From the NCBI RefSeq assembly GCF_014650575.1, contig NZ_BMVF01000012.1:124001-188000 (forward strand): a DNA stretch of 64,000 bases, written 5' to 3'. Below are positions 5,880-17,690 of this stretch, in pieces; the first letter of the stretch is position 1; each line of letters begins with the position of its first letter. Source of the DNA: Streptomyces naganishii JCM 4654. GTDB taxonomy: Bacteria > Actinomycetota > Actinomycetes > Streptomycetales > Streptomycetaceae. The notes beneath the pieces were generated by a model, which was not told the DNA's origin, did not search any database, and saw nothing but the letters and a program-made list of their open reading frames with translations. The translations under genes were made by a program, and so were the position numbers.

Positions 5880-6157
5880 GCGTGGCTGCGGCCCGCCGCC
5901 AAACGATCTGAGTAACCGCCCGGTCACGGACCGGACGCAAAAAGTCATCGCACGCCCCTCGTGGCAGCGATGTGTCGTACCCCACACTGGGTCCGGTGCC
6001 TGAGTCCTCGGAGCGCGGCCGATCCGTCCCCCACGGGTCCCACACCCCCGCCGCTTCGCTCATCGCGTACGGGACGGACAGCGGCGAGGCCGCCGACTCC
6101 GCCCCCCGAGTACCGCTGCCGCACAGCTCAGCAGCGAACATCCTGGAGGTCGCCCCC

Positions 6158-7306
6158 GTGCAGACCCAGACCCTCGCCCAGACCGACGTCGCCCCCGACC
6201 GCGTCATCGCGGCCGTACCCCCGCAGGACAGGGCCGGGCGCCACCCCGGGACGGAAGGCCCCGCCGAGGCCCCGTCCGAGCCGGAGGAACCTCCGGCGGG
6301 AGCGCTGGAGGGCGACGCCCCCGAGCCCGCCGAACCGGGCGACGCCCCCGAGCCCGTCGAACCGGCCCCCGCCCCCGCCCGCACCGAGTCCGGCGCGCCC
6401 TCCTCCGACCTGTTCCGCCAGTACCTGCGCGAGATCGGCCGCATCCCGCTGCTCACCGCCGCCGAGGAGGTCGAGCTCGCCCGGCGCGTGGAGGCCGGGC
6501 TGTTCGCCGAGGAGAAACTGGCCGGCACCCCCGACCTGGACTCCCAGCTCGCCCTGGACCTGGACCGCCTCGTCGTCATGGGGCGGATGGCCAAGCGCCG
6601 GCTCATCGAGGCGAACCTCCGGCTCGTCGTCTCCGTCGCCAAGCGGTACGTGGGGCGCGGGCTCACCATGCTCGACCTCGTGCAGGAGGGCAACCTCGGG
6701 CTGATCAGGGCGGTGGAGAAGTTCGACTACGCCCGCGGCTACAAGTTCTCCACCTACGCCACCTGGTGGATCCGGCAGGCCATGTCCCGGGCGCTGGCCG
6801 ACCAGGCCCGCACCATCCGGGTCCCTGTCCACGTCGTCGAGCTCATCAACCGGGTCGTGCGCGTGCAGCGCCGGATCCTCCAGGAACGGGGCTACGAGCC
6901 GACGCCCGACGAGGTCGCCGCCCATCTCGAACTGCCGCCCGAGCGGGTCAGCGAGGTGCTGCGCCTGGCCCAGGAGCCGGTCTCCCTGCACGCCCCGGTC
7001 GGCGAGGAGGACGACGTGGCCCTCGGCGACCTCATCGAGGACGGCGACGCCGCCTCCCCGGTGGAGTCCGCCGCCTTCCTGCTGCTGCGCGAGCACCTGG
7101 ACGCCGTGCTGTCGACGCTCGGGGAGCGCGAGCGCAAGGTCGTCCAGCTGCGCTACGGGCTGGCCGACGGGCGGCCGCGCACCCTGGAGGAGATAGGGCG
7201 CATCTTCGGCGTGACCCGCGAGCGGATCCGGCAGATCGAGTCCAAGACCCTCAACAAGCTGCGCGACCACGCCTTCGCCGACCAGCTGCGCGGCTACCTG
7301 GACTGA
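6158..7306 (+). CDS. hrdA: RNA polymerase sigma-70 family (group 2) factor, HrdA-like
   Basis: I start this gene at GTG 6158 because a GGAGG site lies 8 bases upstream. A longer in-frame reading from 5972 adds 62 low-complexity residues without a ribosome-binding site. The 382-residue product has an acidic, Pro/Glu-rich N-terminus, then region 1.2 ([20 protein letters not shown]), region 2 with the -10 recognition helix ([13 protein letters not shown]), region 3, and region 4.2 ([20 protein letters not shown]). It therefore recognises standard -35/-10 promoters. There is no long region 1.1, and the length fits group-2 Hrd proteins; the position after dnaG supports hrdA. A strong hairpin follows the stop. 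Assignment to HrdA rather than another Hrd paralogue is by context and length. Confidence 0.85.
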
Positions 7307-13308: not shown

Positions 13309-13381
13309 TCCTCCGTAGCTCAATTGGCAGAGCAGCCGGCTGTTAACCGGCAGGTTACTGGTTCGAGTCCAGTCGGGGGAG
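13309..13381 (+). tRNA. tRNA-Asn (GTT), copy 1
   Basis: A complete 73-nt cloverleaf: acceptor TCCTCCG with CGGGGGA, D arm GCTC/GAGC, anticodon stem GCCGG/CCGGC with loop CTGTTAA (anticodon GTT at 13342-13344), T arm ACTGG/CCAGT and discriminator G. CCA is not encoded. A -10-like TAATGT lies about 70 bases upstream (13236-13241) without a good -35. Confidence 0.95.
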
Positions 13382-13386
13382 CTCGG

Positions 13387-13459
13387 TCCTCCGTAGCTCA
13401 ATTGGCAGAGCAGCCGGCTGTTAACCGGCAGGTTACTGGTTCGAGTCCAGTCGGGGGAG
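13387..13459 (+). tRNA. tRNA-Asn (GTT), copy 2
   Basis: Identical over all 73 bases to the copy at 13309-13381 and separated from it by only 5 bases. The two must be processed from one transcript, which ends at the T-rich terminator at 13471-13493. The anticodon is at 13420-13422. Confidence 0.95.
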
Positions 13460-13470
13460 CATGCTGAACG

Positions 13471-13588: not shown

Positions 13589-13665
13589 GGGGCGGTAGCT
13601 CAGCCGGTTAGAGCAGCGGACTCATAATCCGTCGGCCGTGGGTTCGAGTCCCACCCGCCCCACCA
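13589..13665 (+). tRNA. tRNA with CAU anticodon (Met-elongator or Ile2), CCA encoded
   Basis: A 74-nt cloverleaf plus encoded CCA (13663-13665): acceptor GGGGCGG/CCGCCCC, anticodon loop CTCATAA, T arm GTGGG/CCCAC. The acceptor and D arm are not initiator-like (first pair G-C, no C1-A72 mismatch). CAU could read AUG, or AUA after lysidine modification by TilS; I cannot decide by eye. A TATGCT -10 candidate is at 13543-13548. Confidence 0.9.
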
Positions 13666-13726
13666 GGCTCTACCCGCGCAGAATCGATATGACCTGCGGC
13701 CGCGCGCGGGGTGCCTTGGTCAAAGT

Positions 13727-13759
13727 CTGCGGCCCCCGGACCGGTTCCGGGGGCCGCAG
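13727..13759 (+). terminator. Long hairpin terminator after the CAU tRNA
   Basis: A perfect 14-bp stem (13727-13740 with 13746-13759) and 5-base loop, without a T-run, about 60 bases past the tRNA 3' end. Confidence 0.75.
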
Positions 13760-13827
13760 GCGCGTGTTGGCCGGGTTTTGCACCCGGCCGGAGGAACGCC
13801 TCGCGCGGCCTTCGGCGGTCCCGTGCG

Positions 13828-13989
13828 TCAGGTGCTGTCGTCGGCGGGGTCCGCCGTGTCCGGGAGGTCGTCCCGGTCGCCCTCGGCCTGTGACGGTGTC
13901 GGATACGGCGTGTCCGGCGGCTCGGCGTTGCGCCGGGTGCCCGCGTCGTCCCGCTCGCCCTCGGCCTGGGATGGGGTGTGCTCTCTCAT
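13828..13989 (-). CDS. Small acidic hypothetical protein with internal repeat
   Basis: This 53-residue, highly charged protein starts at ATG 13989, with CAGGAG about 9 bases upstream. A near-identical segment, TPSQAEGERDD / TPSQAEGDRDD, occurs twice (residues 5-15 and 31-41), and the C-terminus is Asp/Pro-rich. There are no hydrophobic segments or cysteines, so it is probably cytoplasmic and disordered. It lies just downstream of the STAS-ANTAR regulator on the same strand (47-bp gap) and may be co-transcribed. No family is recognised. Confidence 0.55.
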   Translation of the reverse strand: MREHTPSQAEGERDDAGTRRNAEPPDTPYPTPSQAEGDRDDLPDTADPADDST

Positions 13990-14036
13990 CGTGGTGACTC
14001 CTGGGGCTCCTGGTGACTCCTCTGGGACGGGGATGG

Positions 14037-14954
14037 TCACTCGGAGGCCGGGTACCCCGGCGTGCGGTCCGCTACCGGCGTGCGGTCCGCTACCGGCGCG
14101 CGGGGCGCCTGCGGGTCCGGGGGTGGGGGCGTCTGCTGGGCCGGGGGCGCCTGCGCGGTGGGAGGCGGCTGCGGTGCCTGCGAGGGCTCCGGTGCCGGTG
14201 ACGGCTCCGGTGCCGAGGGCTGCGGTGCCGGCGAGAGTCGCGGTGTGTCCGGGGCGGTGGTGCGGGATATCGCCGTGCGCAGGGCCGTGCGGATGCCGTC
14301 CGGCGGTACGGGGCCGTCCGGCAGGGCGCCGGCGGTGACGGCGGCGGCCACCTCGCGCAGTTTGGTGTTCGAGCGCTGGGAGGTCTCGCGCAGGATGTCC
14401 CAGGCCTGTTCGGGCGTGCAGGAGTGGGCGGCCATCAGGATGCCGCGCGCCTGGTCGATCACCGGGCGGGCCACCATGGCCTCGCGGAGCTGCCCGACCT
14501 CCTCGCGCAGCCGAAGCAGCCGCTCCGTGCGCTCCAGGGCCACCGCCGAGCCGGTCAGGGTTTCAGGCGACGGATGCGCACACCCGTCGGGCGGCGGACG
14601 CAGCGGGTCGGCGGTGTCCAGGCCCGCCAGCTCCAGCACCCGGCGCGGCTGACCGGTCCAGCCGGTGGCCGTCACCTCGACCAGGTGACCCCGGCCGTGC
14701 TCGTCGAGCACCTGGAGGAACTCCAGGCCGGTGGTGTCCATGAAGGTCACCCGCGACACGTCGAGCTCCACCCGGACGACCCCGGGCGGCAGTTCGGCCA
14801 GTGCCTTGGCCAGCGTCTGCGTACAGCCGTGGACCAGTTCCCCGCGCGGGGTGAGGAAGGCCCGGCCGTCCTGGTCCGTGCGCACGCCGATGGTCAGCGT
14901 GTCGACAAGGGCGTGCAACCGCAGTGCGAGAGGTGGTGGCGCCGTTGAGGTCAT
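14037..14954 (-). CDS. STAS-ANTAR domain regulator with Pro-rich tail
   Basis: This 305-residue protein has a STAS domain (about residues 25-115). Its VTFMDTTGLEFLQVL segment carries the phosphorylatable Ser/Thr position of anti-anti-sigma factors. An ANTAR domain follows (about 155-215, ARPVIDQARGILMAAHSCTPEQAWDILRETSQ); this three-helix RNA-binding module usually controls transcription antitermination. The last 80 residues are Pro/Ala/Gln-rich with a tandem PVADRTPVADRTP repeat. Pairing STAS with ANTAR suggests that partner switching, not a two-component phosphorelay, controls the RNA-binding part. It is divergent from a MEDS-HATPase protein, a likely kinase partner. Start ATG 14954 has a GGCGGGG site upstream. 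Confidence 0.85.
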   Translation of the reverse strand: MTSTAPPPLALRLHALVDTLTIGVRTDQDGRAFLTPRGELVHGCTQTLAKALAELPPGVVRVELDVSRVTFMDTTGLEFLQVLDEHGRGHLVEVTATGWTGQPRRVLELAGLDTADPLRPPPDGCAHPSPETLTGSAVALERTERLLRLREEVGQLREAMVARPVIDQARGILMAAHSCTPEQAWDILRETSQRSNTKLREVAAAVTAGALPDGPVPPDGIRTALRTAISRTTAPDTPRLSPAPQPSAPEPSPAPEPSQAPQPPPTAQAPPAQQTPPPPDPQAPRAPVADRTPVADRTPGYPASE

Positions 14955-15236
14955 GTCCCCGCCTTGTTCGTCCCCGGCAGTCCCCGCGCGACCTGGCGAC
15001 GTCGCGCTCCCCGTCGCCGCCGGGCCGCGGCCGTGGGGGCCGCGGGTCGAAACGCCATGGTCTGCCTCCCGGCGGTGCTTTCGTGCACCTGCCCACTGCT
15101 CTCCGCCGTACACGCAATCGTGGTGATACGGGCTGATTCTTGACGAACCCGTGGGACGCATGGGGCTCGTACGGGGCGGGCAGGGGGCGGAGGCGGGGCG
15201 CGTGAGAGGGGCGCGGATCATACTGTTGAGCGAGCA
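14955..15236. other. Intergenic region between divergent regulators
   Basis: These 282 bases hold the promoter region of the STAS-ANTAR gene (- strand) and probably that of the MEDS unit (+ strand). On the + strand CATACT at 15219-15224 could be a -10 hexamer for a near-leaderless start at 15237. TTGACG at 15140-15145 has no matching -10. No RNA gene or repeat was seen. Confidence 0.4.
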
Positions 15237-15644
15237 GTGGAGCAACGGGGAGGCGGTGTGGACGTGCCGGGAGCAGAGCGGAACGCGCCGGGCGGATGCG
15301 TGGCGCCCGGCGCGGGGCCGCGGCTGAGCGTGTCGCCGCCGTCCGGGCACGGCGGACCGCGGGCGGAGGGTGAAGTGAACCTGGCCACACGGAGGGTCCG
15401 CGAGCGCGCGGGGGAACGGGCGGTGCGCGACGCCGGCGACGTCCACGGCCCGGGGCCGTCGGCCGTGACCCTCGCCGGCGTGGCCGGTGCCGGCGTACTC
15501 GCCGAGACCGTGGGCGGGCTCGGTCCGGGTCGCCCGACCGTGCCGCACCGGCCGCCGGCCGCGCTGCCCCGGATACTGGAGGTGTTCCGGATACTGGAGG
15601 TGTTCCGGCCCGGCCTGCCGGGAAGTGAGGTCCCCGCGTCATGA
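15237..15644 (+). CDS. Hypothetical Gly/Pro/Arg-rich protein, doubtful
   Basis: This 135-residue frame begins at GTG 15237 and overlaps the next gene by 4 bases (ATGA), the pattern of a real coupled gene. Composition is Gly/Pro/Arg/Ala-rich with no recognisable domain. An exact 18-base tandem duplication (about 15571-15606) makes the residues read RILEVFRILEVF. A -10-like CATACT lies just upstream. The overlap and promoter argue for a gene and the composition argues against, so I rate it uncertain. If not translated, 14955-15640 is simply a 686-bp regulatory region. Confidence 0.35.
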   Translation: MEQRGGGVDVPGAERNAPGGCVAPGAGPRLSVSPPSGHGGPRAEGEVNLATRRVRERAGERAVRDAGDVHGPGPSAVTLAGVAGAGVLAETVGGLGPGRPTVPHRPPAALPRILEVFRILEVFRPGLPGSEVPAS

Positions 15645-16576
15645 CGACCGTCGTCACAGAACCGTTCGTCCACCCCGCCCTGTTCTACCGGGACGAGGCG
15701 GAGTACCTGGCGGGCACCGTCCCCTTCGTACGCGCGGGCCTCGAGTCCGGCGAGCCGGTCGCGGTGGCCGTCCCCGGCGAGAACCTGCGGCTGATCGAGG
15801 CGGAACTGGGCGCGGACGCCGCCGCCGTACGGCTGCTGGACATGCGGCAGGCCGGACGCAACCCCGGCCGGATCATCCCCGGCGTGCTGCGCGCCTTCGC
15901 CGACGCCCAGGCGGCCGGCCGCCGCGTGCGGATCATCGGCGAGCCGATCTGGGCCGGCCGCACGCCCAGCGAGTACCCGGCCTGCGTGCAGCACGAGGCG
16001 CTGATCAACGCCGCGTTCGAGGGCCGCGAGGTCACCATCCTGTGCCCGTACGACGCCGTGCGGCTGGACGAGCGGACCCTCGCCGACGCGCACGCCACCC
16101 ACCCCGTCGTCATCCCCTCCGGCGCCACCGCCGGACGGGACAGCGTCGCCTACGCCCCCGACCACGTCCTCGGCCGGTACAACGAGCCGCTGGCGCCCGC
16201 GCCGGACGCGCTGTGCTTCGCCTTCACCGCGCAGACGCTCTCACGGGCGCGGCACGTGGCCACCGCCGAGGGTGCCCGGCTGGGTCTGGTGGACACCCGC
16301 CTGGAGGACCTGGCGCTGGTCACGGCCGAGCTGACCACCAACAGCGTGGTGCACGGCGGCGGTTCGGGCGAGCTGCGGGTGTGGGCGGAGAACGGCGAGG
16401 TGCTGTGCGAGGTGCGCGACCGGGGCCGCCTCGCCGACCCGCTGGCCGGACGCCGGCCCGCCGCCCGCGACCAGCGTGGCGGCCGCGGCCTGCTGCTGGT
16501 CAACCTCGTCGCCGACCTGGTGCGCGTGCACACCGGGGAGAAGGGCACCACGGTCCGCTGCTGGTTCGCTCCCTGA
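15641..16576 (+). CDS. MEDS-domain / HATPase anti-sigma-type regulator
   Basis: This 311-residue protein has an N-terminal MEDS domain (about residues 8-175, beginning HPALFYRDEAEYLAG), seen in methanogen and actinobacterial sensors. A GHKL ATPase of the SpoIIAB/RsbW type follows (about 205-311). The N box reads LVTAELTTNSVVHGGG, then DRGRLADPL and the glycine box GGRGLLLVNLV. Such proteins act as Ser/Thr kinases or anti-sigma factors that phosphorylate STAS antagonists. The STAS-ANTAR protein encoded divergently is the obvious candidate partner. No phosphoacceptor His is present, so it is not a classical histidine kinase. It converges with mbl across a 76-bp gap. Confidence 0.85.
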   Translation: MTTVVTEPFVHPALFYRDEAEYLAGTVPFVRAGLESGEPVAVAVPGENLRLIEAELGADAAAVRLLDMRQAGRNPGRIIPGVLRAFADAQAAGRRVRIIGEPIWAGRTPSEYPACVQHEALINAAFEGREVTILCPYDAVRLDERTLADAHATHPVVIPSGATAGRDSVAYAPDHVLGRYNEPLAPAPDALCFAFTAQTLSRARHVATAEGARLGLVDTRLEDLALVTAELTTNSVVHGGGSGELRVWAENGEVLCEVRDRGRLADPLAGRRPAARDQRGGRGLLLVNLVADLVRVHTGEKGTTVRCWFAP

Positions 16577-16652
16577 ACGGCCCAAGTGGCCTGACGGCCG
16601 CGCGGGTTCGCGTCACGGGTTCGCGTACGGCTCTGCCGGGGCCCCGCGCGGG

Positions 16653-17690
16653 CTACGCGCCCAGCGGGTCCAGCACCAGCGGCTCGATCCTGCCCTCCAG
16701 CATGGCGCCCAGGCCCTGGACCGCGCACACGTCCGGCCGTTCGGCGATGTGCACCGGTACGCCGGTGGCCTGGCGCAGCATCTGGTCCAGGCCCGGGAGC
16801 AGCGCGGAGCCGCCCACCATCATGATCCCCCGGTCGGCGACGTCGGCCACCAGGTCCGGCGGGCACTCGCGCAGCACGCGGTAGATGCCGTCGAGCACGG
16901 CGGTCAGCGGCGTCTGGATGGCGTCCCGTACGGCGGCGGTGTCGACCCGCACCGAGCGGGCGAGGCCCGTGGCCACGTCGCGGCCGTGGATCTCGGTGGA
17001 CGACGGGCCCTGCGGGGTGAGCCCGTTGCCGGACAGGGCGAGCTGGAGCGGCCGTACGGACTGGCTGGGCAGCATCAACTCGTGTGCGTGGCGCAGGTGC
17101 TGGACGATCGCGTGGTCGACCGCCTCGCCGCCGACCGGGATGCGCTCGGCGGTGACGATCGAGCCCAGCGAGAGCACGGCGACCTGGGTCGCCGCGGCCC
17201 CGCACACCATGATCATGGTGGCCTCGGCCCGTTCCACGGGCAGCCCGCAGCCGACCGCCGCCGCGATGAGGGTGTCGACGAGTTCGACCCGGCGGGCGCC
17301 GAGCCCGACCAGCGTCTCGATCGTGGCGCGCTGGGCCAGCGGGTCGGCGTCGTGCGGGGTGCAGGCGGCGGCCCGCAGCCGGGGCTTGCGGCGCAGGCTG
17401 CGGCGCATCCGGTCGCCGAGCAGATGGCGCAGCATGCGCTGGGCCATCTCGATGTCGACGACGGTGCCGCCGGACACCGGACGGGCCACGCGGATGTAGT
17501 CGGGGGTGCGGCCGGTCATCTTCTCGGCGAACTCGCCGACCGCGATCAGCGCTCCGGTACGGGTGTTGACGGCGGCGACCGAGGGCTGGTCGACCACGAG
17601 GCCCGCGCCCTTGACGTACACCCGGGTCCGGGCCGCTCCCAGGTCGACGGCGAAATGGCAGCGGCGCAACTGCTCCAGACTTGCGGTCAC
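16653..17690 (-). CDS. mbl: MreB-like actin homologue Mbl
   Basis: This 345-residue actin-fold protein has phosphate-1 loop AVDLGAARTRVYVKG, the central phosphate-2 region (VDTLIAAAVGCGLPVERAEATMIMVCG) and the adenosine motif IMMVGGSALLPGLDQML. In Streptomyces, Mbl works with MreB on spore-wall integrity at the inner membrane. Start GTG 17690 has GGAGG about 7 bases upstream; longer readings run into Pro-rich non-conserved sequence. No mreC/mreD genes are adjacent, as expected for the dispersed Streptomyces mbl. The ATPase loop reads GAART where canonical MreB has GTANT, a divergence typical of these paralogues. The upstream gap holds an AT-rich patch with TAAAAT on the minus strand. Confidence 0.87.
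   Translation of the reverse strand: MTASLEQLRRCHFAVDLGAARTRVYVKGAGLVVDQPSVAAVNTRTGALIAVGEFAEKMTGRTPDYIRVARPVSGGTVVDIEMAQRMLRHLLGDRMRRSLRRKPRLRAAACTPHDADPLAQRATIETLVGLGARRVELVDTLIAAAVGCGLPVERAEATMIMVCGAAATQVAVLSLGSIVTAERIPVGGEAVDHAIVQHLRHAHELMLPSQSVRPLQLALSGNGLTPQGPSSTEIHGRDVATGLARSVRVDTAAVRDAIQTPLTAVLDGIYRVLRECPPDLVADVADRGIMMVGGSALLPGLDQMLRQATGVPVHIAERPDVCAVQGLGAMLEGRIEPLVLDPLGA

Follow-up and report, generated by a model that had tools for sequence, protein, structure and literature searches.

Partner switching is a known route by which sigma factors are freed, and the inputs known for ANTAR proteins are histidine kinases, ligands and protein partners. For the rsbB-rsbA-sigB operon of Streptomyces coelicolor, the portion of the published account that we draw on describes SigB as regulated by RsbA and not by the co-transcribed RsbB, the antagonist being another RsbV homologue, SCO7325 (PMC8346170); among ANTAR systems, a protein partner acts on the ANTAR protein in NasS–NasT (PMC3795266) and AmiC–AmiR (PMC8934654). 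Here we describe a locus from Streptomyces naganishii JCM 4654, lying in a stretch of 64,000 nucleotides (hereafter the window), in which a gene for a STAS domain fused to an RNA-binding ANTAR domain (14037–14954, minus strand) stands divergent to an rsbA gene (15641–16576, plus strand) encoding a kinase/anti-sigma protein with MEDS and HATPase_c_2 domains. We put forward, tentatively and at a little under an even chance, the reading that this is a partner-switching module of RsbA type whose antagonist, in the seat of RsbV, has been fused to ANTAR, adding an RNA arm. Judged by title and the start of the abstract, the open-licence literature yielded no published STAS-ANTAR or partner-switch system of this kind, and the word STAS is absent from the main text of a survey of actinobacterial ANTAR RNAs (PMC8164766). 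In PMC10493332 and PMC12604733 the matching words prove to be an author called Antar and the title of a reference.

The comparison with S. coelicolor is one of gene order and roles. Both have a small STAS gene ahead of rsbA, a separate STAS protein (in S. coelicolor the working antagonist) and SigB-type promoters (PMC8346170), and the small STAS and STAS-ANTAR of the window fit the two S. coelicolor STAS seats, that of RsbB and that of the separate RsbV homologue; however, the window locus has no SigB-type gene, and its second STAS is ANTAR-fused and divergent from rsbA. As in RsbV–RsbW, SpoIIAA–SpoIIAB and RsfB–UsfX, the STAS domain has a threonine at the acceptor place and the GHKL kinase has its box residues, but the kinase carries an N-terminal MEDS domain and the antagonist an ANTAR domain. 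With EutV–EutW, NasT–NasS, AmiR–AmiC and PAL the protein shares a sensor or receiver part, a long helix and an ANTAR domain with most RNA-contact residues kept; unlike in those systems the input is a STAS domain, for which threonine phosphorylation by an anti-sigma-type kinase is to be expected.

The STAS-ANTAR protein comprises 305 residues, and its closest named relatives come from Streptomyces. Orthologues begin at the ATG at 14954, on which basis a 503-residue open reading frame starting at 15548 was rejected as an over-long frame. The STAS domain (residues 33–114; 14613–14858, minus strand) exceeds the cut-offs of Pfam PF13466 (STAS_2, 37.8 bits against 29.2) and PF01740 (STAS, 27.9 bits against 22.6), and contains a predicted phospho-acceptor, Thr74 (codon 14733–14735, minus strand), in the motif D73-T74-T-G, which we take to occupy the place of D-S-S-G in SpoIIAA. 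The ANTAR domain (residues 155–206; 14337–14492, minus strand; PF03861) scores 71.7 bits against a cut-off of 27.3. An AlphaFold model built with ten sequences (mean predicted local distance difference score 80.8, predicted TM-score 0.52) has a STAS fold resembling SpoIIAA, RsfB and RsbV, the ANTAR helices and, entering the ANTAR bundle, a helix of 48 residues (130–177; 14424–14567, minus strand) like the coiled coil of EutV. In Foldseek searches the best Protein Data Bank matches of the STAS half are SpoIIAA from SpoIIAB complexes (1tid, 1til, 1th8), RsfB bound to UsfX (8ih8) and RsbV bound to RsbW (6m36); for the ANTAR half the search returned PAL (E 6e-4) and weaker hits (E 4e-3 to 1e-2) to AmiR and EutV, with RNA or without. 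Every match spans one half only, and whole-query TM-scores are therefore about 0.35 or less. The last ~70 residues form a proline-rich tail, which is shorter in the orthologue L031 and absent from the other aligned orthologues.

The opposing protein (311 residues) matches positions 1–302 of the 303 in the NCBIfam profile RsbA_anti_sig (NF041045; 413.2 bits, cut-off 210). It has a MEDS sensor-like domain (residues 11–155; 15671–16105, plus strand; Pfam PF14417; 131.3 bits, cut-off 29.8) and a GHKL kinase domain (residues 194–306; 16220–16558, plus strand; HATPase_c_2, 63.0 bits, cut-off 27.4) in which the N-, G1- and G2-box residues are intact. With both sets of domains over their cut-offs and the second protein an NCBIfam RsbA, the first-pass annotation was correct in describing a STAS-ANTAR protein facing a MEDS-HATPase. 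Six kinase residues, E230, N234, D260, G262, G281 and G283, are identical in all 42 RsbA proteins linked to STAS-ANTAR and in all eight of a comparison set (seven sigma-linked proteins plus L175, whose sigma link is undemonstrated), and the two sets show a single fixed difference, N288 versus H (42 versus 8). Accordingly, the sequences give no sign that RsbA of the window type has lost sigma binding. A phylogeny of 68 RsbA proteins taken from the loci analysed, a set partly chosen by STAS-ANTAR and in part with short flanks, places 40 of the 42 ANTAR-linked proteins in one group (support 100/99) near the sigma-linked ones; L166 and L167 fall in another group, and since the deeper forks are weak we claim neither one nor two origins.

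Three residues of the MEDS domain, Cys115, His118 and Cys135 (window 15983–16045), are kept in 42, 42 and 41 of the 42 ANTAR-linked proteins and in 8/8 of the comparison set; a metal, heme or redox site is possible. The same genome (7.8 Mb in 75 contigs) encodes a second RsbA on contig 14 (L100:6385-7694); a small STAS gene runs into the start of this rsbA as well, and neither a STAS-ANTAR nor a SigB-type gene lies within the 14 kb examined. The rsbA gene of the nearest relative, S. anandii (L031:4533-5497 / L130), is split over two frames, being either broken or the product of a sequencing error.

RsbA exceeded the family cut-off in 26 genomes of a first sample of 61, and full-length STAS-ANTAR (>300 bits) was present in seven. 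When 295 genomes of the genus were searched with a ten-orthologue alignment (E<=1e-33), 53 proved to encode STAS-ANTAR. Models of STAS, ANTAR, MEDS, HATPase, the small STAS and sigma factors were then run over these loci in six frames, and in 41 of them rsbA was immediately upstream in divergent orientation. In the window the two start codons are 686 bp apart. Because the divergent arrangement recurs in 41/53 genomes the pair is more than a chance neighbourhood, and the two genes, as the first-pass annotation had entertained, are conserved together. Across the class (E<=1e-28) STAS-ANTAR occurs in 7 of 394 genomes, all from the same genus (1 of 137 genera); so far, the pairing is conserved in Streptomyces only.

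Residues expected to matter were counted in 42 loci with adjacent rsbA (41 of the 53 genomes plus L032). Position 74 is threonine or serine in 41, and R163, Q168, R170, W185, R189 and N196 are invariant in 42/42. Among the 12 loci without adjacent rsbA, L163 and L164 (genomes G276 and G199, with no RsbA at E<=1e-30) are the only ones with D-P-G-G at the acceptor, L161 and L165 carry N196G and arginine for Q168, and L169 carries R189V; all acceptor and RNA residues are intact in the other seven. Loss of ANTAR residues in orthologues, which the first-pass annotation regarded as telling against a role in RNA binding, is thus found in none of the 42 loci beside rsbA and in three of the 12 lacking it there. 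For association tests 54 rows were used (53 genomes plus L032, with G263 counted as having rsbA), and the p values ignore kinship. Five RNA residues are kept in 43/43 with rsbA versus 8/11 without (p=0.007), and acceptor and RNA residues together in 42/43 versus 6/11 (p=0.0008).

These counts bear on the possibility that the two genes are neighbours only, STAS-ANTAR being regulated by other means and the adjacency being an old gene order in slow decay. Acceptor and RNA residues are kept beside rsbA wherever STAS is present and point losses are confined to loci without rsbA, which argues against it, with kinship uncorrected in the association. Nevertheless, several results weigh against our proposal, the absences of rsbA also favouring mere neighbourhood. 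In 12 of the 53 genomes rsbA is not next to STAS-ANTAR; searched with the RsbA alignment at E<=1e-30, these have RsbA on the STAS-ANTAR contig at a distance of 8.6 kb (G263), elsewhere in the genome (G163, G194) or as a distant relative only (G130 and G132, 227 and 238 bits), and seven have none. The tree needs seven changes of rsbA presence and four of integrity, and so STAS-ANTAR persists without rsbA, which was lost several times while STAS-ANTAR stayed. The acceptor taken alone is not significantly associated with rsbA (42/43 versus 9/11, p=0.10), and neither is a tree-aware test with four independent pairs significant (on average 1.1 in the same direction, 0.0 opposite). Among the rsbA-adjacent loci, L041, the sole exception at position 74, lacks the STAS domain and retains ANTAR, L043 has a deletion inside STAS, and position 182 is glutamate or aspartate in just 38/42. 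Finally, the neighbourhood is syntenic, an MreB/Mbl-like gene (16653–17690; 366.7 bits) lying next to rsbA in the window and beside the locus in many relatives, and adjacency alone therefore proves little. That gene is directly beside STAS-ANTAR in L086, L141, L148, L161 and L165, and in all four loci scanned for it (L138, L157, L163, L164) a GAF-HisKA_3 kinase gene lies between the two.

Selection on the gene where rsbA is missing points the same way. By a simple counting method, the ratios of non-synonymous to synonymous change (Ka/Ks) of the pair L163/L164, with acceptor lost and no RsbA found, are 0.25 for STAS and 0.11 for ANTAR, and those of STAS-ANTAR in L086/L148 are 0.17 and 0.12; both pairs are under purifying selection, and in the former STAS-ANTAR is thus maintained in the absence of the kinase. 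The L163/L164 pattern is also what one expects if Thr74 were needed by the kinase alone. On balance we consider it unlikely, though it deserves serious weight, that the two genes are neighbours and nothing more. As separate observations, the GAF-HisKA_3 gene lies upstream of STAS-ANTAR and in the same direction in L163, L164, L138 and L157, and L163 has a SigB/F/G-family sigma gene just downstream.

An ungapped alignment to NasR pairs R163, Q168, R170, E182, W185, R189 and N196 with R340, K345, K347, E359, W362, R366 and N373. R340, E359, W362, R366 and N373 are retained in the window protein, K347 is replaced by arginine and K345 by glutamine. In the part of the NasR study that concerns these residues, R340 is essential, W362A strongly lowers RNA binding and R366A and N373A abolish it, the effect of K345A is milder, and K347R binds RNA about ten-fold more weakly (PMC7496416). 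By alignment ranges, W185 is also where Tyr164 of EutV falls, the residue described as stacking against the hexaloop's conserved G4 (PMC8934654). Gln168, which is lysine in NasR and EutV, and Arg170, at the place of K347R, are weak points and count against an RNA arm. Since the RNA-contact residues are mostly kept, RNA binding by the protein is plausible.

The same positions speak to the view that STAS-ANTAR is an ordinary RsbV, its ANTAR part a dimeriser with no role in RNA binding. Such a protein would have a STAS half that is RsbV-like in fold and acceptor, and a SigB-like promoter element (see below), and the window gene has both. But the positions invariant in 42/42 loci are those of RNA contact in NasR and EutV and extend beyond the hydrophobic core (PMC7496416, PMC8934654, as far as the sections on these contacts go), and ANTAR Ka/Ks is 0.08–0.45 in 12 of 13 pairs; the remaining pair, L161/L165, which has lost N196 and for which the searches gave no close RsbA, stands at 0.89, and here ANTAR is relaxed. 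We therefore regard a purely anti-anti-sigma function as very improbable. Between the window and the relatives L130, L129 and L170, Ka/Ks is 0.29–0.49 for STAS, 0.29–0.45 for ANTAR and 0.13–0.40 for HATPase; for MEDS it is 0.36 against L129, 0.20 against L170 and 0.82 against L130, a figure with few changes behind it and from a locus whose rsbA is split over two frames.

Alignment of the intergenic regions revealed a single strongly conserved block, which on the STAS-ANTAR strand reads GTGTA[G/C]-N13-GGGCAGGCG; in the window it is GTGTAC-N13-GGGCAG (15089–15113, minus strand). Allowing up to three substitutions, in a scan run without a shuffled control, the element is present in 53/54 loci, with L169 the exception and L034 excluded; 49/53 have a spacer of 13, and 53/53 retain the G triplet and the position-5 A of GGGCAG. 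When no more than two substitutions were allowed but the spacer was relaxed and the region lengthened, the element was recovered from 42/42 rsbA-adjacent loci and from 11/13 others, L034 included, against a background of 66 in 1100 mononucleotide shuffles. For promoters of the SigB family, the pertinent part of one study gives a -10 box with GGG almost invariant and A at position 5, one group having GNNT as its -35 box, and individual promoters with GTGTAG or with GGGCAT, GGGCAA or GGGCAC (PMC8346170). The element is kept in most loci that lack rsbA and so belongs to STAS-ANTAR, which in the window would then have a leader some 125 bases long. Exact matches to GTGTA-N14/15-GGGCAGG show no enrichment across the genome (two places, with two for the reversed control), and the promoter claim accordingly rests on conservation among related loci and not on the pattern. 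Neither sigma-70-consensus promoters nor intrinsic terminators were found at 13700–16800.

The first-pass annotation had proposed that phosphorylation of the STAS part controls antitermination instead of a sigma factor. Taken literally this is an RNA-only switch, in which the RsbA of this clade has dropped sigma control and phosphorylation of STAS-ANTAR governs RNA binding in its place. Of the 68 RsbA loci, 42 adjoin STAS-ANTAR and 11 a SigB-type sigma gene, and 15 have neither in the DNA examined; in none do STAS-ANTAR and a SigB-type gene occur together, flanks being short in some. No SigB-type gene was found linked to the ANTAR-linked rsbA loci, which counts against a sigma arm. Within 20 kb around the window rsbA no gene scored above 250 bits with a model built on the sigma-linked genes, the nearest sigma gene (5996–7306, 8 kb off) being RpoD-like with a SigBFG score of 133.5 bits, below the cut-off of 234.35. 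Both RsbA genes of this genome are without a SigB-type neighbour. However, the 68 loci were partly picked by STAS-ANTAR, 40/42 of the ANTAR-linked proteins form one clade, and unlinked antagonists of SigB are known, SCO7325 being described as one (PMC8346170). The single fixed difference at N288 and the SigB-like promoter element likewise tell against a switch confined to RNA, which we judge improbable. Related RsbA genes adjoin genes of the SigB/F/G family (four of four scanned sigma genes, L047, L052, L053 and L163, pass the family cut-off, no RsbA being present in L163), and the RsbA proteins are near-identical at conserved positions. On these grounds we abandon the words 'instead of a sigma factor' in favour of 'as well as a sigma factor'; the acceptor, the kinase boxes, most RNA-contact residues and the pairing speak for the rest of that proposal, and a switch acting onto RNA is plausible.

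Under the partner-switching proposal with an added RNA arm, RsbA would phosphorylate Thr74 in the STAS half, and unphosphorylated STAS-ANTAR would bind RsbA and titrate it off an unlinked SigB-type sigma factor. The same contact may also govern RNA binding by the ANTAR half. The sign of this switch is a guess: by analogy with NasS–NasT and AmiC–AmiR, the RsbA-bound state would be the one in which RNA binding is off. Given the SigB-like element at STAS-ANTAR, a SigB-type sigma factor would increase both its own antagonist and the RNA arm. The most far-reaching part, that a Ser/Thr switch of anti-sigma type acts directly on RNA, with RsbA binding or phosphorylation toggling ANTAR at nascent or mature transcripts, so that one kinase would set both initiation through a SigB-type sigma factor and control after initiation, is in our view possible, though we would sooner wager against it than for it.

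The search for an RNA target at the locus came back empty, and this too weighs against the proposal. As a candidate we considered autoregulation through an intergenic ANTAR target and rejected it: the dual hexaloop with A1 and G4 was present in 0/42 loci on either strand, against a shuffled mean of 0.42. The search covered the intergenic regions of these loci and required stems of at least four pairs, so that weaker hairpins would be missed, and shuffling was within 50-base blocks and not dinucleotide-preserving. With no ANTAR target at the locus, antitermination is unproven. A search of the window with Rfam returned three tRNAs and nothing else.

Between the divergent genes lies a small STAS-like gene (15237–15644, plus strand) whose stop overlaps the rsbA start by four bases (ATGA); neither it nor the promoter-like element of STAS-ANTAR figured in the first-pass annotation. 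In the window its core is eroded (GPGPSAVTLAGVAG), it carries an 18-bp tandem duplication and it is without a Pfam match, whereas homologues reach the STAS_2 cut-off in five of five cases tested; against a model made from 18 family members, itself among them, it scores 110 bits, a figure that is therefore partly circular. At a threshold of 35 bits the model finds a small STAS at 46 of the 68 RsbA loci (29/42 ANTAR-linked, 8/11 sigma-linked and 9/15 others, some with short flanks). Of 14 aligned proteins, ten read D-V-A-G at the acceptor motif, the window protein G-V-A-G, and the other three D-P-A-A, D-A-A-A or D-L-G-A; this place, without serine or threonine, is that of the phospho-serine of SpoIIAA. 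Ka/Ks is 0.65–0.93 between the window and the three relatives and 0.17–0.50 in six other pairs that have the gene. This coupled STAS protein, lacking an acceptor, sits in the place of RsbB in the rsbB-rsbA-sigB operon.

A second Streptomyces family (L087–L098) shares the STAS-ANTAR architecture but scores about 110 bits or less to the model of the window family. All 13 proteins examined (L087–L098 plus L048:11072-12350) have cysteine at the acceptor place, and a small MarR-like winged helix-turn-helix gene lies beside STAS-ANTAR in 12 of the 13 loci L087–L099, as well as in L048. In genome G036 (L048:6581-11770) RsbA and a small STAS stand beside a GAF-SpoIIE phosphatase, a D-S-S-G STAS protein and a STAS-ANTAR of this second family, a gene group that is a nearly complete partner-switch set. 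Next to the window locus lie two tRNA-Asn genes in direct repeat, four bases apart (13309–13460), and a tRNA with a CAT anticodon (13589–13665).

The conserved pair of STAS-ANTAR and RsbA would join partner switching to ANTAR, linking a Ser/Thr phospho-switch to an output on RNA. Genomes that carry rsbA, genomes that lack it and those in which the acceptor has become proline form a natural test set. If the proposal is true, stress control in Streptomyces gains a layer after initiation, and in some soil Streptomyces one phosphorylation switch may govern both a transcription factor and RNA.

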